Assembly (NCBI RefSeq): GCF_963675165.1
Contig: NC_087380.1
Span: forward strand, 266,001 to 330,000
Reading direction: 5' to 3'
DNA length: 64,000 bases
Source: Halichondria panicea
Lineage: Eukaryota > Porifera > Demospongiae > Suberitida > Halichondriidae
Shown piece after piece: positions 8,798 to 64,000 of this stretch; the first letter of the stretch is position 1, and the number at the start of each line of letters is the position of its first letter. The translations under genes and the position numbers were made by a program. The notes beneath the pieces are model-generated. The model was not told the DNA's origin and did no database searches. It worked only from the letters and a program-made list of their open reading frames with translations.

Positions 8798-11208
8798 TCA
8801 CAGTCGCCCACTCACAGTCGAGTAGGCATTGTTTTGTGAGAAAACGTAGTCACCTTTGACATTTTTGGAGGCTGGGATTTCATCATAAACGGCAGGGACG
8901 GTCTCGTAGGTAGCGGCTGCACTTTGACCCTGGTCAGTAAGGGAGATATCTTGAGTAACAGTCCTGTGTGTGGAGAGAACAGATGATAATACTCGTAGTA
9001 GTAGTTATGACAATAGCACTTTGTTCAGTGATTATTTCAACACAAACCACTTTAAACTAACTCACATTTTCCCTCCTCTCTTGTACCGGAGCACTAGGTA
9101 GGCCACCATCACTACACCAGTTACTATAGTCACCACTGCTACCAGGGCCACCGCTCCTCCCACCACAGCACCAGTGTTGTCACACTGACAGGGAGAGCTC
9201 TCATCAGTAGAGGCTGTAATGGATTGTGTGGACTGCATGGCACTTAACACAATGCATGCTGTGTCTATCCCTCCACTGGTAGGCACCACACAGCAGTAGA
9301 CACCACCATGAGCAGTAGCAGTTCGACTCATCATCAGACTGACACTCATCTGACCTCTGCTAACATACAACGCTCCATCCTCCATAACAACAGAGCCATT
9401 AGGATAGTACCAATCTCCAGTGTTCCCACAGCAGCCAGCAAGGTCAGTATGACAGACGAGGCCACTTCTCTCTCCCAAGGAGGACAGGGAGATCTCAGAG
9501 AGCCCAGATAAGTAGTTGGTGGAGGAGAGGGACAAGTACACAGGGGGAGGGACTATATGGGGGACATGTAAAATACAGTAAATGCAAAATTGCTACTTAC
9601 TCTGACAGGCCGGTGAGCTGCTCCAGTTGCCAGCACTCAAACATGTGATGGTTTCAGAGCCAATCAGAAGGTATCCAGTGTCACAAGTGTAGGTCGCCTC
9701 TCCTCCAATCATTGTGCTGGTTGGTTGTCCGGGAGATCCGTTGTTAATAGAGGAAGGAGGGCCACAGGAAACTGTAACCAAAGATATTTAGTATTTATGT
9801 AACTGTACTAAACGAACACAAGAATAACAGTATTTAAAGTCCATTCCACTCACTTTGACAAGTTGGAGGTGACCCAGCCCAGATCCCTCCACTCACACAG
9901 ATCCTGGTAGTGATACCTCCAGTGAGAGTGTAGCCAAAGTTGCAAGAGTGCACGGCACTAGAGCCGAGAGGTCTGTTGTCAGGGGATCCACCACTGTACA
10001 TAATCATCCCATTGGCCAGTGAGGGTGTTAAGTCAGGGCAGTTAGCTGTATGGGAGACGATACACTCAACAAACAAACAGTACAAAGTCCATTCCACTTA
10101 CGCTGACAAGTTGGAGCTGACCCACTCCACAATCTATCACTCCTACAAGTCCTGGTGCTGTCTCCATTGAGAGTGTAGCCAGTGTCACAGGTGTAGGTGG
10201 CCACAGTATCCACTGGTCTGCTGTCAGGGGATCCAGCACCATAGTCAACATTTTCGTTTGCCAGTGAGGGTAGGTCAGTGCAGGTTATCACTATGGGAAC
10301 AGGTACACACTCAATGTACATATTATTACACATTCAGTCATTCCTTACTCTGACACACTGGAGCTGGTGTTGAGCTCCACTCTCCATTACTCCCACAAGT
10401 CCTCACTGACACTCCAACCAGAGTGTAGGGATTGAAGCAGCTGTAACTGGCTGTAGCACCCACTGGTCTGTTGTTAGTGGATCCACTAGCATAGGTTATG
10501 GCTCCATTAGAGATTTCCGAGAGATTATCAGAACATGTAGGTGCAACTGCAGGGGAGGGAGATATGAAAATACTATAATGCATGGAACTATAGGAGTGTT
10601 GGACAAGTAAACACTTGGAGAGGGTTTTCTACAGGTAAACTCGTGAAAGGGGGTGAATAACCAGCTAGTATATACTGGGGCTGACATATTGATCCGCTCA
10701 CCCAGGTTAGCACAGAGGGTCATATCTCCTCCAGTAGTTGGTACAGTACAACAGTAGGACCCAGTTGGAGTGAGGGGGTTGTTAGCCTCTCTACGAGCCA
10801 GTCTGATGACCTGAGGTGCCCCCTTTAGAATGTAGAACTGCTGTCCAGCAGTCATTGAGCCAGCATTTTGCAGTACCACACTCCCATCAGGAAACGTCCA
10901 CTGTCCTAGTGCTCCCATGCCATTGTTGTCACTACTTCTACAGCAGGTAGTGAGGTCAGTGTGACAGGTGAGAGAAGGGAGACCACCATCCTCTCCAATG
11001 GCAGTGATGAGGATCTCAGTATTGTCAGTAGTGATGCTAGGACCAGATCCCAGAGTCAGGTACACTGTTCAGTGATGCAAGGTTACTAATTTAGCTATAC
11101 AACCAAGTTCATAGCTCATACTCCACTACTAGTATTACCTTGCTGCCCCCAGCATGTGGACACAACACACAGCAAAAGCAGCAGAAGCTGAACACCTTGA
11201 GTCTTCAT
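8798..11208 (-). CDS. R1: Ig/CCP transmembrane receptor, apparently intact, truncated tail
   Basis: Cell-surface receptor of unknown ligand. Exons on the minus strand: signal peptide 11208-11139 (MKTQGVQLLLLLLCVVSTCW); Ig1 11064-10702; four CCP domains near 10548-10350, 10290-10108, 10045-9852 and 9772-9602; Ig2 about 9553-9245; TM 9213-9066, a helix of about 25 hydrophobic residues ending in the stop-transfer RYKRGGKM; tail 8963-8798. CCPs show the family pattern C, TYTC, GYTL, TC, W-SGS-PTC. The tail keeps tyrosines in YETVP, YDEI, DYVF and YSTV. A 14-bp tandem duplication (CCCACTCACAGTCG) then shifts the frame and stops it, removing the EAPAA and YDN end seen in R4 and R7. The same lesion is in R8 and R10. 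All ectodomain exons are open. Exon phases are all 1. Confidence 0.85.
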
Positions 11209-11530
11209 TGTTTGCACTTGGATAGCCTCGATTCCAGGCCGCATTAGCTGCCTGGAATCGAGGCTACATTTTGCATGCATACACCACATCCATATTTTCG
11301 ATCTTTACCCACATGTCTGACAAACAATTTAGCCTCGATTCCAGGACGCTCTCAATTGAGAGTGAGAGAGGGGCTGGGATCGAGTTATTGTGATGTCCTA
11401 TAGACTTTTAGTCTATACACCATGCATATGCACACCCACACACTGACAGTGACATGCAGGTATTGTCACATTTGTCTCTCAGCTAACAAAAGGATTCATG
11501 TGATACCCGGTAGGTAGTTCAGTTCAGTTA
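11209..11530. other. R1-R2 intergenic region with two hairpins and a calponin fragment
   Basis: Contains a perfect 17-bp-arm hairpin at 11223-11266 and a degenerate relative at about 11331-11390 (both start TAGCCTCGATTCCAGG). Between them is a decayed copy of the array promoter element (CGATCTTTACCCA, 11299-11311). A palindrome (TAGACTTTTAGTCTA) lies near 11400, and at 11425-11468 there is a short copy of the calponin intron 3/exon 4 junction. No gene seen. Confidence 0.7.
11223..11266. mobile_element. 44-bp hairpin element, TAGCCTCGATTCCAGGC family
   Basis: Perfect 17-bp terminal inverted repeats (TAGCCTCGATTCCAGGC) around a 10-base loop. Relatives with the same ends are at 47828-47873 and 52230-52279, the latter with a clear 9-bp target duplication; a half copy is at about 25613-25630. 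No target duplication is visible at this copy. Confidence 0.7.
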
Positions 11531-13273
11531 TCGTCAGCTAGGCATTGTTCTGTGTGTAGATAATATGGTCACCTTAGACCACGCTGGAGGCTGGGATATC
11601 CTCGGTCTTGTAGGTAGCGGTTGCACTTTGACCCTGGTCAGGGAGCGGGTTATCTTGAGGAACAGTCCTGTGTGTGGAGAGAACATTACGATACTACTTT
11701 GTAAAAGCTGTTTTGTCATGATTATGTAGCTAACTAACACAAACCACTTTAAACTAACTCACATTTTCCCTCCTCTCTTGTACTGGAGCACTAGGTAGGT
11801 CACCATCACTACTGTCACTCCAATCACCACTACCTGGGCCAGCACTCCTGCCACCACTCCACCAACCACAGCACCAGTGTTGTCACTCTGAGGACGACCC
11901 ACAGATACCCCTGTGAGTGCCAAAACAATAGTCCAGAGTAATTTTTGAATAATTAATATAGGCACTGTACATGTATTGTGCTATACTATTATTATTTTAC
12001 TGCTGAAATTAAAATTACTTGTAATAGAGGGAGAGGTGGTGTCTCCAGGCACTGAAACACGGCATAATCATAATGGATGAGAACACAAGACCCAGGCCAC
12101 ACTTACCTAACTGCACACAGAAGGCTTAGATGACCCCAGTGTTGTCAGGAATCACACAGCAGTAGGGCGATGGAGTCTGAGTGCACCTGTATCTCCAACA
12201 CTGTACAGTAGATCAGTGTTTGAATCAGTAATGTCTAGATTTCTTATAATAGCTGTTCCATTGGGTAGTAGCCAATCTCCGGAATTATCTTGTCCTGTAC
12301 AGCAAATAGTTGAGTCAGTTCTGCAAGTCAATGCTGTCTCAAGTACGTGGTATCTCCGATGGTGTCTATGGCAACCTGTGAGTTCATAACAGCATGCATA
12401 GTTGGTGGTTCCATGGAGACGTAGACAGGAGGTACTGTGGGGGTGGGGGATTGTAACTCTGTTAGAGTTCATTGTACTAGCTTACATTGACAAGTGAGAG
12501 CTGACCCACTCCACAATCTGTCAGCTCTACACACTCTGGTAGCAGTGCTGGTAGTGGAGGGTATGTATCCATTCAAGCAGCTCTGTGTAGCCACTGTTCC
12601 CTCTACTTTGAGGCTGGAGTCTGAACTGGGAAGTCTGTAGCTGATCACTCCATTGGTACAGTGAGGTCAGGACAGATGGCTGCATGTAGGGGTTATACAA
12701 TCTATACCAACCATCACAACTATACCTAAACAAACAAGATCTGATCCACCCCACGATCTGTCAGACAGACAAGCTCTAGTACATGTAGTGCTGTTCCTGG
12801 AACGTGTGTATCCAGACATGCAGCTCTGTCCGGCCTGCCGGTGTACACCGGAGTAAGACGGCTGCTGTACATGATAACTCCATTGGCTGGCACAGGGAGG
12901 CTAGGACATGTCACTGTGGGAACAGACACAATCTACTGATCAACCATTACCACTAGTTTGTACAACGCATACCTACAGGTTGGAGCTGACCCACTCCACA
13001 TTCCATCACTCTCACAAGTCCTGGTGCTGCCTCCATTGAGAGTGTAGCCAGTGTCACAGGTGTAGGTGACCACAGTGTTCTCACCCAGTGTCATGTTAGA
13101 GTATGAGATCCCTCCATTGGTGGGGGGAGGGAGGGACGAGCAGACCACTACATGCAAGGGATATTATACACACCTGTATTTATATAGCAATCATTATCAG
13201 CACCTTGCTGTCCCCAGCAGGTGGACACAGCACACAGCAAAAGCAGCAGAAGCACAACACCTTAAGTCTTCAT
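11530..13273 (-). pseudogene. R2: CCP/Ig3 receptor pseudogene
   Basis: Same design as R9: signal exon, three CCP exons, Ig3, TM, tail; no Ig1. It is broken several times. The signal exon (13273 down) reads ATG AAG ACT TAA, a nonsense change of the CAA found in its paralogs (stop at 13264-13262). The CCP exon near 12680 lacks 4 bp relative to R4. The Ig3 exon (about 12450-12130) has small insertions relative to R9. The tail (from 11665) has lost the YETV/YEEI region by a 15-bp deletion and stops at 11574 where paralogs have AAA. The TM exon (about 11920-11760) and the first CCP exon (about 13150-12970) are still open. Not expected to give a functional receptor. Confidence 0.82.
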
Positions 13274-14475: not shown

Positions 14476-15229
14476 TTCCCATAGAGACATAGACAGGAGG
14501 TATTGTGGGGGTGGGGGATTGTAAGTCTGGAGTTCATTGTACTAGCTTACATTGACAGGTTGGAGCTGATCCATCCCAGATCCCACCACTCATACAGAAC
14601 CTGGTGGTACGTACAGTGAAAGTACCTCCAGTGAGAGTGTAACTAGTGTTGCAGGAGTGCACAGCATGAGAGAAGAAAGGTCTATTGTTATGGGATCCAG
14701 CATTGTACATAATCAATCCATTGGTTAGTGGGGGTAAGTCAGGGCAGTCAGCTGTGTGGGAGACGATACACTCAACAGACAAACAGTACAAAGTTTATTC
14801 CACTTACGTTGACACACTGGAGCTGACCCACTCCACAATCCACTCCCACAAGTCCTGGTGCTGCCTCCATTGAGAGTGTAGCCAGTGTCACAGGTGTAGG
14901 TGACCACAGTGTTCTCACCCAGCGTCATGTTAGAGTAGGAGATCACTCCATTGGTGTAGGGAGGGAGGGAGAGGCATAATACTGTGAGAAGGTAATATTG
15001 GATATGGTTATCAGGTCAGTACCTATACTCTACCAATAGGATCACTATAACACATTCTAACTGCAAACTTACCAAAACATGCTGCACTAACTCCAACGTA
15101 TCTATTCGACAATCTGATCAAAAAAAGCTAGATCTAGATCATTATCACAGGATTACCTTGCTGTCCCCAGCAGGTGGACACAAAACACAGAGAAAGCAGC
15201 AGAAGCAAAACCTTGACTTGAGTCTTCAT
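14476..15229 (-). pseudogene. R3: 5' fragment of a CCP/Ig3 receptor
   Basis: Intact signal exon (ATG 15229; MKTQVKVLLLLLSLCFVSTC), two open CCP exons (about 14983-14810 and 14755-14550), then only the first few codons of an Ig3 exon (about 14515-14476). The sequence then turns into foldback repeat at about 14475. The matching tail-exon end survives on the other side of the repeat block (13625-13661). Repeat invasion or recombination therefore removed most of Ig3, the TM helix and the tail. If still transcribed it could make a secreted two-CCP peptide; more likely it is a relic. Its start is 71 bp from P1, with which it shares a promoter. Confidence 0.75.
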
Positions 15230-15300
15230 TGTTTGCATCTTGGCTTGCATGACACACATCCAAAACAGTTATCTTCCATTAATGATCTTTACCCACCCAC
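15230..15300. promoter_or_regulatory. Divergent promoter shared by R3 and P1, with conserved 21-bp element
   Basis: Only 71 bp separate the two ATGs. The element at 15275-15295 has the core CCATTAATGATCTTTACCC. It recurs at the equivalent place near R2, R4, R6, R7, R8, R9, R11 and R12. The spacing implies very short 5' UTRs on both sides. Confidence 0.7.
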
Positions 15301-15579
15301 ATGGCCTGGCACAGAGCAGCAAGACCTTGGTTCACACTCCCTCTCCTCAGACACCATCACTGTCCTTCACCCGCTGTCCTCCAGGTGGTGTCTCCATGGC
15401 AGCTCTCCTGTCCTCAGCCCACCACTCTACTACCCCTCATCAGACAATGGTCACAACACTCAGATACTGGTGAGACATTGTGAGAATAGTACGGTGGTCC
15501 GTAGAATGAGACCCATCCCCTCACACACACACGCACACACACACACACACACACTCACACACACACTCACACACACACA

Positions 15580-15615
<36 letters not shown>

Positions 15616-18410
15616 CACCTCCACTAGTCAGTACAGGGAACTAAGAGAGCTAGTAAGGTAAGGCTCTGTAGTATGTTGTTCTATTATATGCAGAGTCGAC
15701 ATTTATAGTATACGTCAATATTCAACTTCTTGCCACCAGTTCTGGACAATATGATAGAGCGCTGGATTTGTGGGAGGAGTCTAAGATGAGTGGTAGCATG
15801 GACACGGACAGTTACACGATTGTCATGGCAATGTGTGAGAGGTTGGGTAGCTCAGAGGCTGCACTGGCCCTGAGGGAGGACATGAGGTCACAAGGACTGG
15901 AAATGGAGGACAGGTATTACTAGCATAGCAACCAACCTGACATCCTCTGTAATGGATGCATTTGTAGCCCTTTCATAGCTCTGTCTATTGAAGGTGCTTT
16001 ATTATTCTTTATTGATGATTTTCCTCACAAATAAGCATGTTTGATAGCTTACTTTAATTGGCATAATTTAACGTGCATACACACAATGTTGGTTGCTTAA
16101 CTCTGATGCCCTCCTGCACAGATGTTGTCTCCACTTAGTGACCACCCTCATTGCTGATGACAAGGCTGGGGAGGCTGTGGAGGTCATGAGGGGGGAGTGG
16201 TTGCAGGTACACCACCCACCACACCCCTAACACTCATCCTGTACCTAACCACCCACCACACCCCTCACACTCATCCTGTACCTACTCTAACCACCCACCA
16301 CACCCCTCACACTCATCCTGTACCTACACTAACCACCCACCACACCCCTCACCCCTCACACTCATCCTGTACCTACACTAACCACCCACACACACAGACT
16401 GGTACGTGCTTCCTACCAGTAGTAGCTAAACAGTTACTAGATAACAAGCATCCTGCACTGGCTCTGGAGGCGTGCTCGCTGACCTCTGACCCCTCCCACC
16501 CCCTCCTGTGTGTACAGCTGGAGTGTCTTGGTTCCCTCGGACAAGTGGAGGAAATGCAACAACTCTTGGAGGAGGTGGTCTGGAAAACCAGGAAAAATAA
16601 TTCACTTATTTATATTCTATTATACAGTCTGTTGGTGTTGAGAGTGATTCGTTGCAAGTGGCCTTTGTTAATGGCCTGTCACTGGCTGGCCTCCACCACA
16701 GAGCAATGGAGCATCTCTCTAGTCTCAAGTGAGGGCCACTGATACTAGTGTAATCTTCAGCAACTTAGAGTATGTACTAACTACAGTGTACTGTGTCCTG
16801 TACTGCCTCTGCCTGTGTTCCTGCTACAGGTGTATTGCTAGCCCATATAGAGTATGTACTAACTACAGTGTACTGTGTCCTGTACTGCCTCTGCCTGTGT
16901 TCCTGCTACAGGTGTATTGCTAGCCCATATAGAGTATGTACTAACTACAGTGTACTGTGTCCTGTACTGCCTCTGCCTGTGTTCCTGCTACAGGTGTATT
17001 GCTAGCCCACGGACACTGTGTCTGTTACTAGAGGCCACCAGGAGAGGGGAAGATGTGGGATCAGCTGCTGCCGTGTTCCACACACTCTGGGAGCAAACCT
17101 TCACTCTTAAGGTACGTTAATACAGTCCCCCTATAAAAGCTATAGATATTATTAACCTTTCCCATAGGATCTCTCTGTCCAGTTCCTCCAGACATCAGTG
17201 TCAGCTGCTGAAGAGGACAGGAGCTCTTACCTGCTCAGAGCTGCCAATGCTTGTCTCCACCTTCAAGCCCTAGCTCTGAGGGACACGGCATCAGAACACA
17301 GTGAAGCTGAAGAGCAGTTCTTGAGTTATGATTTCCCCTCTTTCCTTCATCAACAAAGTGTGTATCCCGACCAGCACACATACGCAGTACGTTACCATAG
17401 CTACCAGTACAAACACTGTTAATTTGTTCCTCATTTAGAGGCCAATTTCAATTTTAATGCACTAAAATTATGGAAATTCTTTTTATTGTTAATTATTTTA
17501 TCCCCCTCAGACATTGTTACTGAGGCTGTGTTTTGATGAGGGGTCTCTAGACACCGCTGATCGTGCCATCAAGTCTCTGTTTCAGTGTGGTTCACCTTTG
17601 ACCTCTGAGGCCTTTGTCGAGTGGGCGGGACACTGTGGCCCAATCACCCCTCAACAAGCTAACAGGGTAAGCCATACAATACCCCGAGGCTATACAGTCG
17701 GCTCTGTAATATTAATTTCCCATTTTGCTATGCTGTTACAAATTTCTCAGGTGTTGGGTTTAATTCGTCGCAATTTCCGTGCCCGCTATGATATTCGATT
17801 GACACTGGAGGACTATGTGCGGTTGTTGGGGGTGGAGCTTGTGTGTGGAGGGGACCCCAAGCAACTCACACACTCATTCAGCTACATCAGGACCATCAAG
17901 AATGTGAGCTATAATAATAGTGCATTGTTGGTATAATTATATACGAGGAGGGGGTAGTTGGGCATCTTTCAACAGCTATAACTTTAGTACCGTTGATCCA
18001 ATGTCAAAAATGTTATGATTTTCTGAAAGCTTAGAAAAAGACCTTTCAAATGATGTGTTTCAGTTCGTTGGGGCTGTAATTTGTAATTTTTCGGCCTTGG
18101 ACCATGGGCTATTATTCATGGTGTGGCCAAATTGGCAAAATGTTTTATCGCTAAATTGGAAACTTTGATGACACGTTTGAAATGTATCTTTCTAAGCTTC
18201 CAAACAATCGGAAAATCTTTTAAATTGTATCCACGATACTCAAGTTATGGCAGCTGAAAGAGTCGCCAAAAATCGTACTATTCTGAGATTAAACGAAGGG
18301 GGGGGGGGTAGTTGAGCATCTTTCAGCTGCCATAACTTTAGTATCGTTGATCCAATGTTAAATTTTAGATACGTTTCAAGTGATGTGTTTCAATTTCATT
18401 ACCCCCCCCC

Positions 18411-18459
<49 letters not shown>

Positions 18460-19290
18460 ATGTCCAACCAGGGGCTACTCACAGAGACCAGTCACTGGTA
18501 CCCTATCATCAGTGCCCTAGCAACACTAGGCCCAGTGGGGGGACCCCTGTTCATTACCTATGATGATATGCTCACATGCGGAGTGGAGCCTGACCTGCAC
18601 ATGTACAAGATCATAGCCAGTGCTGCACAGACCAACAGCACAACTGCCCACTCTGCAGCAGTGGACTGGTGGAGAATGCTCAACTCTAGAGTGAAGCCAG
18701 ATGTAGAGTTAATGAACACGCTGATCCGCTGCTGTGAGGTGTGTGGGGAGTGGGAGAGAGGTTTCCTGTTCCTGGGGCTGTTCGAACAGTGCCAACTATC
18801 ACCTGACATGGACACCTTTGATGCCCTCTTTAAGGTAGGGCATCTGTTTACTGACAAGATCCCCTAAAAGATATTGTGTTTTTGGCGCTAATTACTATTA
18901 AGGATTAAGTAGTTAATAATTGTGACCTATAATCTAGTCAACCCAGAGGAGGTCCGACATGCGTGCACGAATCACTACAAGTGATGCCAAATGCACTAGC
19001 ACTTGTAGTGATTCGTGCATGCATGTCGGACCTCCTCTGTAGTCAACCACTGCACACTTGACCAAAATACTAACCCCACCCCACCTCACCCACCCACCCC
19101 CCCCCCACACACACACACACACACACCTACACAGATCTGTGATGCTACAAGAGACCATGATCGACTGATGGCTCTGAGCTCACTAGCAGAGACAATATTA
19201 CCACAGCAACGAGATCATGTGAGAGATGAGGTCCAGAGAATACACAACAATTGGACTGATAGTGAACAACATCATTCAGAGTCAGAATAG
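15301..19290 (+). CDS. P1: PPR-like (pentatricopeptide-like) protein, probably mitochondrial, intact 12-exon copy
   Basis: Twelve exons join with consistent phases: 15301-15469, 15615-15657, 15740-15913, 16122-16206, 16398-16574, 16628-16728, 16994-17111, 17168-17386, 17511-17666, 17751-17903, 18457-18834, 19135-19290, giving 642 aa. The first 25 residues (MAWHRAARPWFTLPLLRHHH) are basic and free of acids, like a mitochondrial import signal. The body has helical-repeat features of PPR proteins: YDRALDLWEESKMSG with SYTIVMAMCERLG, MLTCGVEPDLHMYKIIASA, and RVKPDVELMNTLIRCCEVCG. An organellar RNA-binding or mitoribosomal role is family inference; I could not match it to a named member such as PTCD3. 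The acceptors of introns 1 and 11 follow long (CA)n tracts, as does that of intron 10. Intron 6 has tandem acceptor copies and intron 11 a hairpin element. Confidence 0.78.
16768..17009 (+). repeat. 82-bp tandem duplication of the intron 6 acceptor in P1 (3 copies)
   Basis: Three direct copies of an 82-bp unit. Each holds a pyrimidine-rich stretch, the acceptor GCTACAG and the first bases of exon 7 (GTGTATTGCTAGCCCA). Only the last copy continues into exon 7 (GGACACTGTGTCTG). P2 has one copy, P3 has eight, and P4 has lost the segment. Apparent ORFs across it (VLYCLCLCSCYRCIASPYRV) are repeat artefacts. Confidence 0.93.
17942..18370. repeat. Foldback element in intron 10 of P1
   Basis: Imperfect inverted repeat of about 400 bp. 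It begins GGGCATCTTTCAACAGC.ATAACTTTAGTA, has TCTGAAAGCTTAGAAA and its complement TTTCTAAGCTTCCAAA in the arms, a GGACCATGGGCTATTA centre and a G-run edge. Same family as the repeats at 13.7-14.5 and 26.3-27.1 kb. Equivalent copies are in P2 (31665-32105), P3 (40915-41375) and P4 (54705-55160). Confidence 0.85.
18944..19039. mobile_element. 96-bp hairpin element in intron 11 of P1, 9-bp target duplication
   Basis: Near-perfect inverted repeat with arms of about 40 bp starting CAGAGGAGGTCCGACATGCG, and a short loop. It is flanked on both sides by the identical 9-mer TAGTCAACC (18935-18943 and 19040-19048), as expected for a transposed miniature element. Equivalent 104-bp copies are in P2, P3 and P4, so insertion predates the P duplications. 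The folded RNA would also resemble a microRNA precursor. Confidence 0.85.
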
Positions 19291-19466
19291 TAGCTACACA
19301 ATGTCGTCATTAATATTAGTGGTTGTACTTATTTGTGGTATTTTTTCTCATGTTTAACTTGACAGCGTTTTTGAAATGAAACACATTGTGAGAGGGGGAG
19401 GGGCTGATGAAGTGTGTATAACTGCATCCTCTATCAATCTGAAATACAATTATGCGATAATTCAGT
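19291..19466. other. Convergent 3' ends of P1 and R4
   Basis: About 176 bp between the P1 stop and the R4 stop. It includes the conserved P 3' UTR (GTTGTACTTATTTGTGGTAT..., AGAGGGGGAGGGGCTGATGAAG). The same junction recurs at P2-R7, P3-R9 and P4-R12. Confidence 0.7.
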
Positions 19467-20987
19467 TTAGTTGTCGTATACAGCAGCTGGAGCCTCCTGC
19501 CCACTCATAGTCGAGTAGGCATCGTTTTGTGTATAGTTGTAGTCACCTTTGACCTCTCCGGAGGCTGAGATCTCCTCATAAGTGACAGGGACGGTCTCGT
19601 AGATAACAGCTGCACTCTGACCCTGGTCAGTATTAAGGGGAATATCTTGAGGAACAGTCCTGTGTGGTGGTTCCCATGGAGACGTAGACAGGAGATACTG
19701 TGGGGGTGGGGGATTGTAAGTCTGTTAGAGTTCATTGTACTAGCTTACATTGACAAGTGAGAGCTGATCCACTCCACAATCTGTCAGCTCCACACACTCT
19801 GGTAGCAGTGCTGGTAGTGGAGGGTACGTATCCATTCAAGCAGCTCTGTGTAGCCACGGTTCCCCGAGGGCGGTGTGGTGTGGTACTAGAGCTGTAGATG
19901 ATCACTCCATTGGTTGGTACAGTGAGGTCAGGACAGGTGGCTGTGGAGACAATACAATCTATCAACCATCAACACATAGTGGAACTCACCTTGACAGGTT
20001 GGAGCTGTTCCACTCCAGGTCCCATCATTCTGACAAACTCTGAAACCCTCTCCAGTGATAGTGTAGCCATTTGTCACAAGTATAGGTAGAAACGCTATCA
20101 ACAGGTCTGCTGCCGGCAGGTCCATCAGTGTAGGTAATGCCTCCATTAAATATCGGTGATAAATCAGAACAAGTTCATGAAATAGTGAACATCACATTCA
20201 ACACATAAACTGCACAAATTCAGATCTACTTACCTTGACAAATTGGAGCTAACCCACTCCACACTGCATCACTCCCACAAGTCCTGGTGCTGCCTCCATT
20301 GAGAGTGTAGCCAATGTCACAGGTGTAGGTGACCACAGTGTTCTCACCCAGCGTCATGTTAGAGTAGGAGACCCCTCCATTGGTGGGGGGAGGGAGGGAC
20401 ATACACGTCAGTGACACCACTGTGTACAGATGATACTGGATAAGGTGACCATTGTACAATCCACTCACCTAGGTTAGCACAGAGGGTCATGTCTCCTCCA
20501 GTAGTTGGTACAGTACAACAGTAGGACCCGGTTGGAGTGAGGGGGTTGTTGGGAGATACTCTACGGTTTAGCACGATGATCTGGGTGGCATCCCTCACAA
20601 TGTAGAACTGCTGTCCAGCATTCAATGCGGCAACATTTCCCAGTAACACACTCCCATCAGGATACGTCCACTGTCCCAGTATTCCATTACCAAAGTTGTT
20701 GGCACCACTTCTACAGCAGGTAGTGAGGTCACTGTGACAAGTGAGAGATGGAAGACCACCCTGGGCACCCTCTCCAATAGTAGTGATGAGGATCTCAGTA
20801 TTGTTAGTGGTGATGCTAGGACCAGATCCCAGAGTCAGGTACACTGTTCAGTGATGCAAGGTTACTAATTTAGCTATACAACCAAGTTCATAGCTCATAC
20901 TCCACTACTAGTGTTACCTTGCTGTCCCCAGCAGGTGGACACAACACACAGCAAAAGCAGCAGAAGCTGAACACCTTGAGTCTCCAT
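19467..20987 (-). CDS. R4: Ig1/CCP receptor with deleted TM and Ig3, possibly secreted
   Basis: Signal exon from ATG 20987 (METQGVQLLLLLLCVV), Ig1 about 20843-20470 (open), CCP about 20440-20235 (open), a second CCP about 20175-19990, a third CCP about 19945-19750 (open), then the tail. The second CCP is damaged: its acceptor reads TTTCAT instead of TTTCAG and one extra T shifts the frame, so it is probably skipped. The start of an Ig3 exon (19720-19670) runs straight into the tail acceptor (TGTGTGG at about 19660), so most of Ig3 and the whole TM exon are deleted. Because exons are phase 1, splicing the last CCP to the tail stays in frame and gives a TM-less protein with the complete tail: YETVP, YEEI, DYNYT, YSTM and the terminal VYDN. 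Whether it is expressed is unknown. Confidence 0.65.
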
Positions 20988-21723: not shown

Positions 21724-24700
21724 CTCACATCGAGTAGGCATTGTTCTGTGAGAAGCCGTAGTCACCTTTGACCTCTCTGGAGGCTGGGATATCCTCATAC
21801 GTGGCAGGGACGGTCTCGTAGATAGCAGCTGCACTTTGACCCTGGTCAGTAAGGGGGATATCTTGAGTAACAGTCCTGTGCATGAGAAGAGATCATGTCA
21901 ACTAGATAAAACTGACTAGAGCCTCACTGTTACTATAATCTAGAGGAAGTTTCCACATTTTAGAAGCCCTCAGGGCTTAGTACATGTATAGAACCCTCAC
22001 TGTCCACAACCAGCCCTTGGGCTTCTAAGTCACGTATAGACACTTCCTAACTAATGACACCCATCACAAACCACTTTAAACTAACTCACACTTTCCCTCC
22101 TCTCTTGTACCGGAGCACTAGGTAGGTCACTATCACTGCAGTTACTGCAATCACCACCACTACCAGGGCCACCGCTCCTCCCACCACAGCAACAGTGTTG
22201 TCACTCTGACAGAGAGAGCTCTCATCAGTAGAGGCTGTAATGGAATGCATGAGACAATTAACCCACAAGCTGTTAGTACCAACCTAACACAATGCATGCT
22301 GTGCTCATCCCTCCACTGGTGGGCACCACACAACAGTAGACACCACCAGGAGCAGTAGCAGTTCCACTCATCATCAGACTGACGCTCATCTGACCTCTGC
22401 TAACATACAACGCTCCATCCTCCATAACAACAGAGCCGTTAGGATAGTACCAATCTCCAGTGTTCCCCTCACAGCAGCCAGCATGGTCAGTATGACAGAC
22501 GAGGCCACTCCCCTCTCCCACGGAGGACAAGGGGATCTCAGAGAGCCCAGATAAGTAGTTGGTGGAGGAGAGGGACAAGTACACAGGGGGAGGAACTAGG
22601 GGGGGTCGTGATGATTAGGAGTCATAATAATAATAATAATGGCCACTTACTCTGACAAGACGGTGAGCTGCTCCAGTTGCCAGTACTCAAACATGTGATG
22701 GTTTCAGAGCCAATCAGAATGTATCCAGTGCCACAAGTGTAGATCGCCTCTCCTCCGATCATTGTGCTGGTTGGTTGTCCGGGAGATCCGTTGGTAATAG
22801 AGGAAGGAGGGCCACAGGAAACTATAACCAAGGATATTTATGTAACTGTACTAAACGAACACCAACAGTATACAAAGTCCATTTCACTCACTTAGACAAG
22901 TTGGAGCAAACCCACTCCACACTCCATCACTCCCACAAGTCCTGGTGGTGCCTCCATTGAGAGTGTACCCAGTGTCACAGGTGAAGGTGGCCACAGTGTC
23001 CACTGGTCTCAGACTAGCAGTCCCCATATTGTAGCTGATCATTCCATTGGCTGGTACAGTGAGGTCAGAACAGGTGGCTGTGTTTACATAATTATATCAA
23101 CAACAACTGTTACGATATTATATAGTGGAACTCACATTGACATGTTGGAGGTGACCCATTCCAGATCCCTCCACTCACACAGGTCCTGGTAGTGTTCCCT
23201 CCAGTGAGAGTGTAGCCAGGGTTGCAGGAGTGCATGGCACTAGAGCCGAGAGGTCTGCTGTTAGTGGATCCTCCATCACTGTACATAATCATCCCATTGG
23301 TCAGTGAGGGTAGGTCAGGGCAGTTAGCTGTATGGGAGACAATACACTCAACAAACAATAGTACAAAGTCCATTTCACTCACTTTGACAAGTTGGAGCAA
23401 ACCCACTCCACACTCCATCACTCCCACAAGTCCTGGTGGTGCCTCCATTGAGAGTGTACCCAGTGTCACAGGTGAAGGTGGCCATAGTGTCCACTGGTCT
23501 CAGACTAGCAGTCCCCATATTGTAGCTGATCATTCCATTGGCTGGTACAGTGAGGTCAGAACAGGTGGCTGTGTTCACATAATTATATCAACAACAACTG
23601 TTACGATATTATATAGTGGAACTCACATTGACATGTTGGAGGTGACCCAGTCCAGATCCCTCCACTCATACAGACCCTGGTAGTGTCCCCTCCAGTGAGA
23701 GTGTAGCCAGGGTTGCAGGAGTGCACAGCACTAGAGCTGAAAGGTCTGTTGTCAGGGGATCCATCACTGTACACAATCATCCCATTGGTCAGTGAGGGTA
23801 GGTCAGGGCAGTTAGCTGTATGGGAGACAATACACTCAACAAACAATAGTACAAAGTCCATTTCACTCACTTTGACAAGTTGGAGCTGACCCACTCCACA
23901 CTCCATCACTCCCACAAGTCCTGGTGGTAGTACCTCCATTGAGAGTGTAGCCAGTGGTACAGGTGTAGGTGGCCACAGTATCCACTGGTCTCAGACTAGC
24001 AGTCCCCATATTGTAGCCGATCACTCCATTGGCTGGTACAGTGAGGTCAGAACATGTGGCTGTGTTCACATAATTATATCAACAACAACTGTTACGATAT
24101 TATATAGTGGAACTCACATTGACATGTTGGAGGTGACCCATTCCAGCCTCCACTCATACAGACCCTGGTAGTGTCCCCTCCAGTGAGAGTGTAGCCAGGG
24201 TTGCAGGAGTGCACAGCACTAGAGCTGAAAGGTCTGTTGTCAGGGGATCCATCACTGTACACAATCATCCCATTGGTCAGTGAGGGTAGGTCAGGGCAGT
24301 TAGCTGTATGGGAGACAATACACTCAACAAACAATAGTACAAAGTCCATTTCACTCACTTTGACAAGTTGGAGCTGACCCACTCCACACTCCATCACTCC
24401 CACAAGTCATGGTGGTAGTACCTCCATTGAGAGTGTAGCCAGTGGTACAGGTGTAGGTGGCCACAGTATCCACTGGTCTCAGACTAGCAGTCCCCATATT
24501 GTAGCCGATCACTCCATTGGCTGGTACAGTGAGGTCAGAACAGGTGGCTGTGTTCACATAATTATATCAACAACAACTGTTACGATATTATATAGTGGAA
24601 CTCACATTGACATGTTGGAGGTGACCCATTCCAGATCCCTCCACTCACACAGATCCTGGTACTGCCTCCAGTGAGAGTGTAGCCAGAGTTGCAAGAGTGC

Positions 24701-47873: not shown

Positions 47874-48678
47874 ACACACACACTGCCATGAGTGCCTAAA
47901 AACAGTCATTATTTATGACAAGGGAGAGAAGCTCGTACAGTAGAAGTAGCACACAAACAATTAAAATTAGTTCACATCTGCATTAAAGTAATGAAACACA
48001 AAAGTCATATAATTATGTGTGATATTTCAGTTCAGTTATCGTATATTCCTCCAGCAGCTGGAGCCTCACGCCCACTCATAGTCGAGTAGGCATTGTTCTG
48101 TGTGTAGCTGTAGTCACCTTTGACCTCTTTGGAGGCTGGGATCTCCTCATAAGTGGCAGGGACGGTCTCGTAGGTAGCGGCTGCATCTTGACCCTCGTCA
48201 GTAAGGGAGATATCTTGAGTAACAGTCCTGTATGTGTGTGGAGAACAGATGATATTACTCATAGTAGTAGTCATGACAATAAGTTTGTTTAGTTCATGAA
48301 GCTTGTTTACGCACAACAAAGTGAGTGCCTAAACTAACAACGCTCTGATACACGAACAACACAAACTACTTTAAACAAGAAGCTCACATTTCCTCTCCTC
48401 TGTTGTACCTGAGCAAAACATTTGTACATGCCCACACATTGATAATCTAGTCTGCTTGTCTTACCTCCAGAAGTAGACCCCGACAATGATACCCACCACA
48501 ATGACAGCGGCTAGAATGAGTAACACAATGACTACACCTGCCACCACACCTCCTGTGTTGTTAGCTCCACCAGGATCTGTACATACATGGGAAGGTTGTG
48601 CTATATTATACATGGTCAGTATAAAAGGACAATTAACTTACTTGGAGGAGAGGTAGTGATGACTCCAGTCACTGAAAC

Positions 48679-49878: not shown

Positions 49879-50050
49879 CTGAAACACACCATATAAAAGT
49901 GATGAGAGCACAAACCCACTTACCTAACTGCACACAGAATGTCACATCTACTCCAGTATTGTCAGGAATCACACAGCAGTAGGAGCCAGTGGGGCCTGAC
50001 ACAGACCCTCGACGATGGAGTCTGAGTGCACCTGTATCTCCAACACTGTA

Positions 50051-50990
50051 TCCCTTTCCTTACCATTCGTAAAAGTCTGGAACAGGAGCGTCTTTAGGTC
50101 GATCAATTAGTGTGGATCCGGCCTCACCACGCCTCCATGTCATTCTATTAGTCTAGATCCGGCTAGCAATTCTAGCTGGGACTCCCAGTTCTAGCTCGTT
50201 TTGTTTAGCGTGTCAGAGACTGGGAGAAGATGATTGGCACTCCCTGGCTCCTTTGGATGTACAGCTGTCCAGATCCCTAGAACATACCCTCCATTCTGAC
50301 AAGTTATCAGTGCATAGGGTGCTTACTAGATTCTTGCCAGCCAGTACAGTTCAAGCTACACACAGCACCGCTCAACTATTCTCTACCCCATTATCTAGCT
50401 AAATCTGGTCCAACTAGACAGCAGACACAGCTAGTTAATTCAGTAAAGCCAGGGGTAGCCCTACTTCTACGGTTGTTCAGTACCCACGGTAACAATTCCT
50501 CTGGGCTGGGCTAACTAGTTGAGCCACGCCTCCCAATTCTCAAGGCTAGGTAACATGTCTCTGTCTAGCTGCTTCTTCAGCTTCTTGCTCAGTTTTGTGG
50601 CTTAGAGAAAGGCCAGCTACTCAGGGGGAAGAGTCCAGATGAAAGTCTGGCAGCCAGGTGACGTCCAAACGGTCAGTTATTCGTTCCACCAACTTTTTAA
50701 TCTAGTCTAGTCCTGCTTGCACTGCTACTCTTCCTACTACTACTGCTGCTACTCTTCCTAGCTAGTCAAAGGTTTCTTTTTTTTTTTTTTTTTTTTAACT
50801 ACATATGCACAAAGAGACATCAAAGCTTACATCAAAGGACACAGATTTTTAGCCTACTTGACTGATAAGGCCGTTACCTAGACTACAGTTTGTTTGTCAG
50901 GGAGGAGCTCACATACAACTTCATCTAATTCATCATAACGATTCGTTACAGTTGTTGTAATTTCTACAACAGATTGCCAAGGAAAGAGGT
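50051..50990. mobile_element. Unclassified 0.94-kb insertion in the Ig3 exon of R11
   Basis: It interrupts CAACACTGTA|CAGTAGATC, a site intact in R6, R9 and R12. The ends are weakly inverted (CCCTTTCCTT versus AAGGAAAGAG) with GTA on both sides. It contains a run of about 25 T at 50768-50796 but no coding ORF. It could be a MITE or a truncated retroelement. Confidence 0.7.
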
Positions 50991-51798
50991 ATAGTAGATC
51001 AGTGTCTGAATCAGACTCCGGCCTAGTGACACTGAGCTGTTCCATTTGGTAGTAGCCAATATCCTAATCCATTGCCACTATTGGGATTATCCTGTCCTGT
51101 ACAGCAAATAGTTGAGTCAGTTCTGCAAGTCAATGCTGTCTCAGTGGTATCTCCCGATGGTCTCTATGGAAACCTGTGAGTTCATAACAGCATAGTTGGT
51201 GGTTCCCATAGAGACGTAGACAGGAGGTACTGTGGGGGTGGGGGATTGTAACTCTGTTAGAGTTCATTGTACTAGCTTACATTGACAAATGAGATTTAAT
51301 CTACTCTAGGTCCCATCATTCTGACAAGCTCTGAAACTACCTCCAGTGAGAGTGTAGCCATTGTTACAAGTATAGGTAGCAATGGTATTAATAGGTCTGC
51401 TGTCAGTAAGCCCGGTCCATCAGTGTAGGTAATGACTCCATTCATTAGTGGTGGTAAATCAGAACAAGTTCCTAAAATAGCATTCAATAAAAAGTACACT
51501 TACGCTGGACACACTGCATGGGTCCGAACCATCCCAGGTACCCCCACTAGTACGAACTGCACAAGAGTGACAGAGCTCACCTTGACAAGTTGGAGGTCCA
51601 TCTCCCTCCACTCACACAGAACCTGGTGGTATGTACAGTGAAAGTACCTCCAGTGAGAGTGTAGTTAGTGTTGCAGGAGTGCACAGCATTAGAGGAGAAA
51701 GGTCTGTTGTTAGTGGATACAGCACTGTACATAATCATCCCATTGGTCAGTGGGGGTAATTCAGGGCAGTTAGCTGTATGGGAGATGATACATTCAAC

Positions 51799-51832
51799 CA
51801 TAGATAATAGAGCACAGTCTCTATTATCTATG
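51799..51832. mobile_element. 34-bp hairpin remnant of the 1,200-bp transposon family
   Basis: Reads as CATAGATAATAGAG, six loop bases, then the exact reverse complement. Flanked by ATTCAAC on both sides (51792-51798, 51833-51839). The empty site is seen in paralogs (ATACACTCAACAAAC). The ends match the transposon at 48679-49878. Confidence 0.87.
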
Positions 51833-52205
51833 ATTCAACAAACAAACAGTACAAAGTCCATTCCACGTACGCTGACACACTGGAGCCGATCCACTCCACA
51901 CTCCACTCTTACAAGTCCTGGTGGTGCCTCCATTGAGAGTGTAGCCAGTGTCACAGGTGTAGATGGCCACAGTGTTCTCACCCAGTGGTGAGTCAGAGTA
52001 GGAGATCACTCCATTGGTGGGGGGAGGGAGGGAGAGGCATAATACTGTGAGAATGTAATATTGTATAATTATGATGACCAGGTAAGTACCTATACCATGT
52101 ACTCTATCAACAGCAATCATTAAATAGATTACCTTGCTGTCCCCAGCAGGTGGACACAACACACAGCAATAGCAGCAAAAGCTGAACACCTTGAGTCTGC
52201 AACAT

Positions 52206-56096: not shown

Positions 56097-56264
56097 TAGC
56101 TACACAATGTCGTCATTAATATTAGTGGTTGTGCTTATTTGTGGGATTTTTTCTCATGTTCAACTTAACAGCGTTTTTGAAATGAAAAACATTGTGAGAG
56201 GGGAGGGACTGATGAAGTATGTATAACTGCATGCTCTATCAATCTGAAATACAGTTTAGTTATC

Positions 56265-58760
56265 CTATACAGCAGCTGGAGCCTCCCGCCCACTCATAGT
56301 CGAGTAGGCATCGTTTTGTGTATAGCTGTAGTCACCTCTGACCTCTCCAGAGGCTGAGATCTCCTCATAAGTGACAGGGACGGTCTCGTAGATAATAGCT
56401 GCACTCTGACCCTGGTCAGTAAGGGGAATATCTTGAGGAGCGGTCCTGTGTGTGTGTGTGAAGATAATTATAATTATTAGCAAGCCTAGATTATATGGAT
56501 GGATGGCCACAAGCAGTTTATTGGCACGTATATAGTGTTAAATTTGTGGCACCCATTCCAATGTAATAATGTATACGTAGTTGGTGATCAAACCGGACAA
56601 TTTCCTGTGAGCTGGTGAACCACAGTGCCAACATGATATGAGATCATAATGGCAGTGCCATACAAGTGATTTTAAAACCCTGCTTTGATGTTTTTAAAGA
56701 TTAGGCATCACCAGTTTGTTTATCCATATGAAGGTTTACACTGAACATGCTGGGCGTAACTAAGCCGGCAGGAGGCAGACCTCGAACATTTTTGACTTTA
56801 ACTCACATTTTCCCTCCTCTCTTGTACCGGAGCACTAGGTAGGTCACCATCACTACAGTCACTGCAATCACTGCTACCACTACCAACGTTACTACCACTC
56901 CTCCCACCACAGCACCAGTGTTATCACAACTGACAGAGAGAGCTCTCATCAATAGAGGCTGTATAATGGACAATTCAAGCTGTTTGTTAGTACCAACCTA
57001 ACACAATGCACATGCTGTGCTTACTTGCAGTGGGTACTTCAAAACACATGCAGAACAAGGATGAGAACATAGACCCACTTACATACCTAACTGCACACAG
57101 AAGGCTTGGATGACCCCAGTACTGTCAGGAATCACACAGCAGTAGGAGCCAGTGGGGCCTGACACAGACCCTCGACGATGGAGTCTGAGTGCATCTGTAT
57201 CTCCAACACTGTACAGTAGATCAGTGTCTGAATCAGTAATGTCCAGTTTCCTTGTGACAACTGTTCCATTCGGTAGTAGCCAATATCCTAATCCATTGGC
57301 ACTATTGGGATTATCTTGTCCTGTACAGCAAATAGTTGAGTCAGTTCTGCAAGTCAATGCTGTCTCAGTGGTATCTCCGATGGTGTCTATGGCAACCTGT
57401 GAGTTCATAACAGCATAGTTGGTGGTTCCCACGGAGACGTAGACAGGAGGTACTGTGGGGGTGAGGGATTGTAACTCTGTTAGAGTTCATTGTACTTACA
57501 TTGACAAGTGAGAGCTGATCCACTCCACAATCTTTCAGCTCTACACACTCTGGTAGCAGTGCTGGTAGTGGAGGGTACGTATCCATTCAAGCAGCTCTGT
57601 GTAACCACAGTTCCTCGAGGGCGGTGTGGTGCGGTACTAGAGCTGTAGATGATCACTCCATTGGTTGGTACAGTGAGGTCAGGACAGGTGGCTGTGGAGG
57701 CAGCACAATCTATCAACCATCAACACATAGTGGAACTCACATTGACAGATTGGAGCTGTTCCACTCCAGGTCCCATCATTCTGACAAACTCTGAAACTCC
57801 CTCCAGTGACAGTGTATCCATTATCACAAGTGTAGGTAGAAACGCTATCAACAGGTCTGCTGCCAGCAGGTCCATCAGTGTAGGTAATGCCTCCATTAAA
57901 TATCGGTGGTAAATCAGAACAAGTTCCTGAAATAGTGAACATCACATTCAACACATAAACTGCACAAATTCAGATATACTTACCTTGACACACTGGAGCT
58001 AACCCACTCCACATTCCATCACTCTCACAAGTCCTGGTGCTGCCTCCATTCAGAGTGTAGCCAGTGTCACAGGTGTAGGTGGCCACAGTGTTCTCACCCA
58101 GCGTCATGTTAGAGTAGGAGATCCCTCCATTGGTGGGGGGAGGGAGGGACATACACGTCAGTGACACCACTGTGTACAGATGATATTGGATAAGGTAATC
58201 ATTGTGCAATCCACTCACCCAGGTTAGCACAGAGGGTCATGTCTCCTCCAGTAGTTGGTACAGTACAACAGTAGGACCCGGTTGGAGTGAGGGGGTTGTT
58301 GGGAGATACTCTACGGTTTAGCACGATGACCTGCCTGGCATCCCTCACAATGTAGAACTGCTGTCCAGTATTCAATGCTGCAACATTTCCCACTACCTCA
58401 CTCCCATCAGGATGCGTCCACTGTCCCAGTATTCCATTACCAAAGTTGTCGGCACCACTTCTACAGCAGGTAGTGAGGTCACTGTGACAAGTGAGAGATG
58501 GAAGACCACCCTGGGCCCCCTCTCCAATGGTAGTGATGAAGATCTCAGTATTGTTAGTGGTGATGCTAGGACCAGATCCCAGAGTCAGGTAGACTGTTTA
58601 GTGATACAAGATAATTAAATATATATATAGACTACAACCAAGTTCAAAGCTCATACCTAGATCTACTAGCAATCATTATCACAGTATTACCTTGCTGTCC
58701 CCAGCAGGTGGACACAACACACAGCAAAAGCAGCAGAAACTGAACACCTTGTGTCTTCAT
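56265..58760 (-). CDS. R12: Ig1/CCP/Ig3 receptor frameshifted just before the TM helix
   Basis: Signal exon from ATG 58760, Ig1 about 58590-58218, three open CCP exons (about 58185-57985, 57930-57745, 57700-57505), Ig3 about 57450-57080 (open), stalk, TM about 56960-56803, tail about 56440-56265. In the TM exon an extra T turns CQCDNTG into CQL and a stop (56926-56924), so the product would end before the membrane helix and be secreted. The helix and tail beyond are intact in the other frame: YETVP, YEEI, DYSYT, YSTM, then TAG replaces the last YDN. The combination of Ig1 with Ig3 in one gene is a recombinant architecture. The intron 3' of the TM exon is nearly identical to that of R9. Confidence 0.7.
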
Positions 58761-61506: not shown

Positions 61507-61509
61507 CTG

Positions 61510-61697: not shown

Positions 61698-62224
61698 GTG
61701 AATATTGTTATTGTGAAAGGTCAATGCGTTGAATAACAATATGTAATAATAGGTGTACCTCTTAGATCTAACAATTCTTCACTAAAAATCAACTTTTTCA
61801 TCTACAAGCAACTGTATATATAGCTGGATAGTTTAGTATTTACCACATGCAATGTTGAATGGGATACACTTAGCATGTCAATTTATACACTTGTGTAATT
61901 AATATCTAGACTACATAAACTATAGACTGTAGTATGGTATGTCTAATATAAGCCACATTCATACCATCTCTCCACTTATTTCACTCACCTCTTTAGCTTT
62001 AGCAGTTCTTGCCCTTGTGTTTGTGTAGCCCTGAGCAGCCCCTCCCCATATAAGTATGTACAAGCTAATGCATTGTGGGTGTGACCACTCCTTGGAATGC
62101 TAAGCATGGTTGCACATCCGCTGCACCTTCCGGCTACAAGGTATACTATACTATAGCTGCAACAACACAGCTATCTAGCTAGGGATACCTACTAACTGTC
62201 TATACCATTGAAGAGAGACTACCC
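61698..62224. other. Divergent intergenic region between laccase and R13
   Basis: 527 bp, AT-rich at the laccase side. The array promoter element is absent. TATATATAGC at about 61813-61822 and CTATACTATAGCTGC near R13 are the only TATA-like strings. No ORF. Confidence 0.5.
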
Positions 62225-64000
62225 ATGACCTCCATGCTGTGTGGACTAGTGTGTGTGGTCCTGCTCTCTGGGCTCACTGCACTGGCAGGGGGGCAGCAAG
62301 GTGAGTCAGTAGATATATAGTCTATAAACGGTCTATAGTAATTATGCTAAATATAATAATATGAGTGGATTTGTTACATGCAGTCTACCTGACTCTGGGA
62401 TCTGGTCCTAGCATCACTACTGACAATACTGAGATCCTCATCACTGCCATTGGAGAAGATGGTAGTCTCCCTTCTCTCACCTGTCACACTGACCTCACTA
62501 CCTGCTGTAGAAGTAGTGACAACAATGATAATGGAGCACTAGGACAGTGGACGTATCCTGATGGGAGTGTGGTACTGCAAAAAGGTGGCTCAGCGACTGC
62601 TGGACAACAGTTCTACGTTCTAAGGGGGGCACCTCAGGTCATCAGACTGGCTCGTAGAGAGGCTAGTACCAACCCTGTCACTCCAACTGGGTCCTACTGT
62701 TGTTCTGTACTAACTACTGGAGGAGATATGACCCTCTGTGCTAACCTGGGTGAGTGGATCAATACTTCTGTGTTTTATGTTACCAGTATATGTTCGCCTT
62801 TATGAGTTTATGAAACCATCACAACTCTCATAATTATTATTGTATAATGTTCATTCCATCTTGCAGTGGCACCAGTCTGTTCTGATAATCTCCCAGCCAT
62901 CTCTAATGGAGCCATAACCTATGCTAGTGGATCCACTAACAACAGACCAGTGGGTGCTACAGCCAGTTACGCTTGTTTTAATCCCTACCGTCTGGTTGGA
63001 GTGTCAGTGAGGACTTGTGGGGGTGATGGAGAGTGGAGCTCAACAACAGCTCCAGTGTGTCAGAGTAAGGAATGACTGAATGTGTAATAATGTGTACGTT
63101 GAGTGTGTACCTGTTCCCATAGTGATCTGCTCTGACCTACCCTCACTGGAAAATGGGGACATTGACTATGGTGGTGGTGGATCCACTAACAGCAGACCAG
63201 TGAACACTGTGGCCACCTACACCTGTAACCCTGGCTACACTCTCAATGGAGGCACCACCAGGACTTGTGGGAGTGATGGAGTGTGGAGTGGGCCAGCTAT
63301 TGATTGTCAGCGTAAGTGGAATGGACTTTGTACTGTTTGTTTGTTGAGTGTATCGTCTCCCATACAGCTGACTGCCCTGACTTACTACTGATCAATGGGA
63401 TGATTATGTACAGTGCTGGATCCCCTGGCAACAGACCTTTCATCTCTACTGCTGTACACTCCTGTAACCCTGGCTACACTCTCACTGGAGGTACTTTCAC
63501 TACAGGCACCACCAGGATCTGTCTGGGTGGAGGGAAATGGAGTGGGTCACCTCCAACTTGTCAGCGTAAGTAAAGGAATTGAATTTGTACAGTATATTTG
63601 TTGAGTGTGTTCACTATTTCAGGAACTTGTTCTGATTTACCACCACTAATGAATGGAGGCATTACCTACACTGGTGGACTTGCTGACAGCAGACCCACTG
63701 CTACCTACACCTGTGACGATGGTTACACTCTCACTGAAGGGGTTAGCAGAGCTTGTCAGAATGATGGGACCTGGAGTGGATCAGCTCCAACCTGTCAAGG
63801 TGAGTTCCACTATACAACTTAACAGTTGCTTCATCTTTTTGAACAGTGAACACAGGACCCACTGAACCACCCACCACCTGTCCTGACCTCACTGTACCAG
63901 CCAATGGAATAATTAGCTACAATATGGGGACTGCTAGTCCCAGACCAGTGGACACTGTGGCCACCTACACCTGTATCTTCAGATACACTCTCAATGGAGA
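62225..64000 (+). CDS. R13: Ig/CCP receptor on the opposite strand (3' part off window)
   Basis: Signal exon 62225-62300 (MTSMLCGLVCVVLLSGLTAL), different in sequence from the array's MKTQGVQ leader. Ig1 62384-62749, then CCP exons 62867-63064, 63123-63311, 63368-63565, 63623-63799 and a fifth from 63847 to the window end. All borders are GT-AG and phase 1; no lesion seen. Ig1 and the CCPs are closely related to R1, R10 and R5 (for instance TCSDLPPLMNGGITY and the ANGIISYNMGTASPRP class), so it belongs to the same family. TM and tail are beyond the window. Its promoter lacks the conserved element. Confidence 0.87.

Follow-up and report, generated by a model that had tools for sequence, protein, structure and literature searches.

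Ig and CCP ectodomains shared by tyrosine-tailed receptors and receptor tyrosine phosphatases suggest a paired-receptor complex in the sponge Halichondria panicea

Does a dense array of immunoglobulin (Ig)-like and CCP receptors in a sponge genome encode one kind of receptor or several, and what could such an array be for? We examined this question in a stretch of 64,000 nucleotides of Halichondria panicea, referred to here as the window, which occupies positions 266001-330000 of contig NC_087380.1 (C4) in a 131 Mb genome assembly with 39 contigs. A sequence-only reading of the window had described thirteen receptor genes or relics in about 55 kb and had proposed a self/non-self or microbe-sensing locus. 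Our analysis points to two receptor classes in and beyond the window, which have an ectodomain family in common and differ in their cytoplasmic parts, one carrying a short tail with conserved tyrosines and the other carrying tyrosine phosphatase domains.

Profiles were made from the window's own exons and were used to map modules across the 64 kb. This search returned 13 units from 8.8 kb on, 12 on the minus strand and 1 on the plus strand, their number and module types being those of the earlier reading. The leader comes first and is followed by a distal Ig (IgA) and a series of CCPs; next to the membrane stands a second Ig, either IgB or IgC, and after it the transmembrane segment (TM) and the tail. 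The units are, however, not thirteen of a kind. One leader type was found in 12 minus-strand exons, one of them broken, while the plus-strand unit, starting at 62,225, has a different leader and belongs to a receptor protein tyrosine phosphatase (RPTP) class. With relics counted, a unit has at most one distal Ig, between 2 and 10 CCPs and IgB or IgC beside the membrane, so that domain number and order vary as was claimed. Wherever splice sites were readable, the ectodomain exons were of phase 1-1 and the TM-tail intron of phase 2; on these phases three of the 12 units (U1, U5, and U10) gave intact splice models with no stop in frame. The other nine (U2, U3, U4, U6, U7, U8, U9, U11, and U12) are each broken differently, by frameshift, stop, exon loss, an interruption of about 1 kb in IgC (U11) or deletion of IgC and TM (U4), in keeping with the pseudogenes that had been reported. 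Taken together, the profiles and splice models make this architecture secure in our judgement.

The CCP exon which we scanned against Pfam matched Sushi (PF00084) with 44.1 bits against a cut-off of 20.7 (E 2.8e-11), bearing out the CCP stalks; for the tail exon and the cysteine-rich Ig exon there was no match above the Pfam cut-off, hence the domain search that had been suggested as a check succeeded for Sushi and not for Ig. Nor did curated Ig profiles match significantly when run against 73 family members, the best values being 0.046 for V-set, 0.047 for Ig_4 and 0.065 for I-set (5 members). The fold was also approached by structure prediction. AlphaFold given the 13 window domains alone reached a pLDDT of 36.1, and a good model was obtained with a 73-row alignment of 39 out of 40 diverse single exons (L093, which has a stop, was dropped) and 34 others. 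According to this model the cysteine-rich exon is predicted to adopt an Ig beta-sandwich fold, and a profile of it found mostly Ig superfamily structures in the PDB (best E 0.0012), which upholds the Ig-like domains claimed earlier. A likeness of the distal Ig to the TIM family appeared at profile E values of 0.02-0.4 in the PDB. By fold, neither PDB comparison had TIM in its 50 listed rows, and no entry of the viral fold library matched at E <= 0.001.

The plus-strand unit continues past the window with CCPs, IgC, TM2, I-set and PTP domains. We examined four other places on C4 (L064, L105, L106, and L107/L108), and in all four an Ig-CCP ectodomain and a TM, identified by profile match in L064 and L105 and by eye in L106 and L108, are followed by tyrosine phosphatase domains. 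An I-set domain lies between the TM and the PTP domain in L064 (3661-3876), L105 (1064-1273) and L106 (1713-1901), and from this position it is apparently intracellular. The PTP domains were identified by Pfam (E 3.8e-28); the first has HCSAGVGRTG and WPD, while the second keeps the CX5R motif and is without WPD in L064, the one copy examined. By leader, Ig ectodomain, TM and a PTP domain with HCX5R and WPD, the plus-strand unit and its neighbours qualify as putative receptor tyrosine phosphatases. PF00102 has at least 176 matches in the genome (best 150 of 361 candidates scored), and at least 49 catalytic exons, taken as the listed matches covering the catalytic end of the profile, lie at C4 0.09-2.61 Mb. 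An Ig exon was found within 9 kb of 46 of these 49; since the same is true of 61% of random places, which makes the figure less striking, a strand-aware count was also made, and an Ig exon lay within 6 kb on the 5' side in 36/49 and on the 3' side in 13/49. No tail among 37 came within 3 kb of a PTP in that list (random, 11%); one tail on C5, one on C1 and a weak one at C4:4.40 Mb were left out of these proximity counts. The second leader type was present in 7/7 phosphatase-side flanks and the first on the tail side. Five further Ig loci (L028, L030, L031, L033, and L035) have neither leader type, so that more classes may exist.

The tails of the other class were compared in an alignment of 27 full-length distinct copies. 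Columns Y20, Y27, Y40, Y48, V23, E29 and I30 were invariant in all 27, the residue at +3 of the fourth tyrosine was V or M, and the second tyrosine stands in an invariant YxEI motif, which is YEEI in 25/27 tails; YEEI is the preferred site of Src-family SH2 domains. The tails of U1, U5, U8 and U10 end early. Profile-match coordinates place SH2-kinase genes of Src layout at C2:7.25 Mb, an SH2-SH2-kinase layout at C9:5.256 Mb and an SH2-SH2-PTP layout at C3:8.405 Mb. The four invariant tyrosines and these SH2 gene layouts are in line with the tyrosine-signalling tails proposed earlier.

When the two classes, both of single-pass receptors, are compared at the sequence level, leader, TM and cytoplasmic part are class-specific, and distal IgA, the variable CCP stalk and membrane-proximal IgC are held in common; the cytoplasm consists either of the short tail, in which four tyrosines are invariant, or of an I-set domain and, after it, two PTP domains. 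One ectodomain family on different cytoplasmic outputs is one mark of paired receptors, a common or related ligand being another, and by sequence the two classes are candidates for that category; that the two outputs oppose each other would follow from the nature of their domains. We built trees of 25 IgA and 24 IgC copies and compared the number of changes in class label with that in 500 shuffles of the labels. The IgA tree needed 7 changes against a shuffled mean of 7.1, and 303/500 shuffles were as low. For IgC, the starred branches still force at least 2 class changes. The unsorted distal Ig tree, together with the hybrid units and duplicated blocks described below, supports the exon-level recombination that had been suggested.

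Selection was examined on full-length distinct copies (IgA 32, IgB 8, IgC 15, TM 26, tail 27, and CCP 226), partial copies, among them the shortened U2 and U5 tails, being dropped. The pairwise ratio of non-synonymous to synonymous substitution (dN/dS) was 0.73 for IgA, 0.37 for IgB, 0.51 for IgC, 0.46 for the tail, 0.77 for TM and 0.49 for CCP, the last being saturated for many pairs. A tree-based count gave 0.82 for IgA, and IgC ranged over 0.51-0.58 across counts. Strong purifying selection on the ectodomains had been named as a finding that would speak against a recognition locus; it was not seen for the distal Ig, while IgB and IgC are constrained.

Several observations weigh against the paired-receptor mechanism that is argued for below. 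The IgA tree is weakly supported, with 1/22 inner branches starred and the starred branches alone forcing 1 change, and it therefore shows an absence of sorting and not particular exchanges. IgC is partly sorted by class (5 changes against 7.5, with 23/500 shuffles as low). IgB accompanies the tails: 15/17 close copies lie within 2 kb of a tail, and no such copy is closer than 3 kb to a listed PTP. Exchange thus appears to be greatest at the distal end. Most phosphatase-side copies were classed by position and leader. As to the tails, the strict definition of an immunoreceptor tyrosine-based inhibitory motif (ITIM) is (S/I/V/L)xYxx(I/L/V); the +3 residue is V or I in 27/27 tails at both Y20 and Y27, but the -2 residue fits in only 3/27 at Y20 and 6/27 at Y27. 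The corresponding activation motif (ITAM) is YxxL/I-x(6-8)-YxxL/I, and its spacing was found in 0/27 tails, all of which have two YxxV/I motifs 3 residues apart, so that the spacing does not support the comparison with ITAM-like tails of Hydractinia Alr in the earlier reading. The gene-wide dN/dS is below 1. IgA columns 66-80 carry 135 non-synonymous against 21 synonymous changes (P 4e-4 against neutrality) in a region chosen after inspection, and three other IgA loop regions were not significant (P 0.07-0.12). Non-synonymous changes cluster in IgA (permutation p 0.03), but synonymous changes do so almost as strongly (p 0.057), and gene conversion can mislead such substitution counts. From these alignments a diversified region within the distal Ig is likely, and gene-wide positive selection is not shown.

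The family extends far beyond the window, and the cluster, while real in the window, is not the local one of about 55 kb that was first described. The union of the best 150 genome matches for each of the IgA, IgB and IgC profiles comprises at least about 232 Ig exons, a total that misses some copies and counts a few interrupted exons twice (e.g., IgC of U11). At least 200 of them are on C4, at least 184 of these at C4 0.1-2.61 Mb; since C4 makes up 5.9% of the genome, such clustering is not due to chance. Tail exons are rarer, with 40 genome matches, 38 of them on C4, mainly in blocks at C4 0.27-0.32, 1.10-1.15, 1.54-1.67 and 2.92-2.93 Mb. From this layout the window is rather likely to be the edge between two blocks of a single paired-receptor superlocus. 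The same Ig exon also occurs off C4 in smaller groups, at C3:6.68-6.83 Mb (10), C10:1.31-1.35 Mb (3) and C14:2.94-2.96 Mb (7). At L060 and L061 (C4:196-206 kb and 236-246 kb) more than 20 CCPs in a row follow an IgA-type exon, and by domain pattern the two resemble a duplication about 40 kb apart. Searches by tblastn found no relatives in viral contigs or in prokaryote genomes, a result that says nothing on other sponges.

Within the window, the three intact models are U1 (8798..11208, minus strand as are all units up to U12), with leader, IgA, 4 CCPs, IgB, TM and tail and 601 codons to the stop; U5 (21725..25596), with leader, IgA, 10 CCPs, IgB, TM and a tail ending after the fourth tyrosine, in which the CCP pairs are a tandem amplification of a 488-base unit (22864-24956); and U10 (45095..47668), with leader, IgA, 5 CCPs, IgB, TM and tail. 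Three units retain IgA in damaged form of the gene: U4 (19467..20987) has leader, IgA and CCPs, one frameshifted, and the start of its deleted IgC is fused to the tail exon; U8 (35373..37764) has leader, IgA, CCPs of which the first is frameshifted, IgB, TM and tail; and U12 (56265..58760) has leader, IgA, 3 CCPs, IgC, a frameshifted TM and tail. U7 (33228..34879; broken leader, 3 CCPs, frameshifted IgB, TM, and tail) and U9 (42550..44654; leader, disrupted CCPs, IgC, TM, and tail) are without IgA. Relics are U2 (11574..13273), which has a leader with a stop, frameshifted CCPs and IgC and a shortened tail, U3 (14551..15229), reduced to leader and 2 readable CCPs, and U6 (27252..28886), with leader, 3 CCPs, broken IgC and a phosphatase-class TM. 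The profile search gave no tail for U6, and no PTP or I-set domain for it was found within the window. U11 (48032..52205) is a hybrid of leader, CCPs, the split IgC, a phosphatase-class TM (48464-48565) and tail. As U6 and U11 carry a phosphatase-class TM in a tail-type setting with no PTP in the window, they appear to be hybrids or remnants. U13 (62225..64000, plus strand) comprises the first exons of an RPTP, in which the leader of the phosphatase class is followed by IgA, 4 CCPs and the beginning of one more.

A PPR-like gene, whose PPR match is below the Pfam cut-off, stands in four plus-strand copies (15153..19666, 29260-33426, 37691-42743, and 52275-56452) amid the opposite-strand receptors, and as the long matches between these blocks are 82-97% identical, the gene was evidently copied along with its receptor neighbours. 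A multicopper oxidase with an 844-codon open frame (59176-61707, minus strand), running into an 18-base tandem repeat (61516-61698), separates the tail block from the first phosphatase gene. The left flank (1-8550) holds ordinary genes, namely CCDC93-like, WD40, F-box, inositol-phosphatase-type with SKICH and calponin-type. Elsewhere in the genome, about 13 kinase-domain loci lie at C4:2.52-2.76 Mb, and one of them, L109, is a receptor-like kinase whose ectodomain is unmatched by Ig or CCP profiles; as a third class of the family this cluster was dropped, the one locus tested having no Ig, CCP or shared TM. Another expansion, of at least 26 similar protein-kinase matches, is at C1:15.5-17.4 Mb, and at C1:5280527-5280718, on a contig of chromosome size, there is a fragment of COX1 that contains two TGA codons and is probably mitochondrial DNA copied into the nucleus.

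We argue that the mechanism which best fits these sequences, and which is probably though by no means certainly correct, is a paired-receptor complex in which recombining recognition cassettes are mounted on a tyrosine tail or on a phosphatase. Unequal crossing-over and gene conversion would keep shuffling the cassettes between the classes, and the phase 1-1 exons would help their exchange. On contact, a Src-family kinase would phosphorylate the tail and dock on the YxEI motif, and signalling would begin; a phosphatase receptor whose ectodomain is of the same kind, drawn to the contact or excluded from it, would cancel the signal, and the outcome would be set by which tail and phosphatase cassettes bind. 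A large family with a shared ectodomain in two signalling types would thereby be a candidate for discerning self, neighbour or microbe. A broader form of this idea, a histocompatibility or immune super-complex with one recombining cassette pool on tail receptors and receptor phosphatases and recognition read as the local kinase/phosphatase balance, seems to us doubtful; in that form the locus would embody a receptor logic in which kinase substrate and phosphatase are neighbours in the genome, and would be a gene-level candidate for sponge self/non-self recognition.

What the cassettes bind is a further question. They may recognize self or non-self on neighbouring tissue, the tail/phosphatase balance then deciding between fusion and rejection; we hold this allorecognition reading tentatively, as possible but less likely than not. 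Clustered Ig receptors with many pseudogenes, as found here, are known from the allorecognition complex of Hydractinia (PMC11067881), receptors of Ig-Sushi-Ig-TM order with Yxx(I/L/V) tails from Botryllus (PMC12065747), and the precise self/non-self graft recognition of sponges has been taken, in the available part of a paper on Amphimedon, to point to an underlying polymorphic genetic system (PMC5450542). However, our basis is a single assembly, receptors for pathogens would look alike, and the Amphimedon paper names no such receptors in that part, the words immunoglobulin, sushi, tyrosine and receptor each occurring 0 times in its main text (PMC5450542). Receptors that sense microbes or symbionts and were diversified by host-microbe conflict are somewhat unlikely as the explanation; sponge Ig and Sushi genes are among the responders to microbial molecules, but the accessible parts of these reports do not mention a class of phosphatases that shares the ectodomains (PMC8242945, PMC6208332).

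The array could also consist of adhesion receptors whose number grew by tandem duplication under neutrality, their variation and exchange being a matter of repeat dynamics and not of recognition. Ig-bearing RPTPs are commonly adhesion receptors, the unrelated PPR-like gene was copied within the same blocks, and both the gene-wide dN/dS and the clustering of synonymous changes agree with such an origin. The non-synonymous excess in one distal Ig region, with the tail and IgB constrained, goes against it, and we consider it improbable. It is very improbable indeed that uncollapsed haplotypes inflated the copy number, for though a small number of pairs have equal scores (C4:2.92 and 2.93 Mb), matching window stretches of at least 600 bases are 66-97% identical, and the units break at different places and form orderly arrays on one contig.

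The paired-receptor complex can be set beside known systems. RPTPs of LAR/CD45 type have an Ig-bearing ectodomain, one TM and two cytoplasmic PTP domains, and the sponge phosphatase class is similar, down to the altered second PTP domain of L064; it is set apart by a stalk of CCPs, by a distal Ig rich in cysteines, by the I-set domain that separates TM from PTP and by its clusters with dozens of copies. Vertebrate KIR, LILR and FcRL receptors have similar ectodomains with opposed cytoplasmic outputs and are kept alike by exchange, whereas opposition in the sponge would come from the receptor's own phosphatase domain and not from ITIM against ITAM-coupled partners. Judged by architecture, the closest known system would be fester/FcoR of Botryllus, followed by Alr of Hydractinia. 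The FcoR proteins are described as type I, with a variable-type Ig, one Sushi, two Ig domains, TM and a tyrosine tail that has an ITIM or hemITAM in some; the fuhc locus holds 53 FcoR loci with gene content differing between haplotypes, the fester partners are without known signalling domains, and Botryllus expresses CD45-like phosphatases (PMC12065747, available part). The sponge units differ, as far as an architectural comparison goes, in carrying many CCPs, in lacking an ITAM and in having a second class whose phosphatase domains stand in tandem. Alr comprises at least 41 clustered loci, many of them pseudogenes, whose assignment to the Ig superfamily was aided by AlphaFold; by architecture both systems are clustered Ig receptors with pseudogenes, but CCP stalks and phosphatase partners are unmentioned for Alr in the available part of that source (PMC11067881). 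For FcoR, the corresponding part of its source mentions no class of phosphatases that shares the ectodomain (PMC12065747). Our literature search, subscription papers excepted, found no described sponge locus of this kind, nor a receptor locus named for the graft recognition of sponges.

If the paired-receptor complex holds, it would give a biochemical rule to test, namely the action of the phosphatase on the YxEI tail, and would place paired immune-type receptors in an animal that is probably early-branching. A single chromosomal complex of this kind would also offer a concrete place to look for polymorphism.

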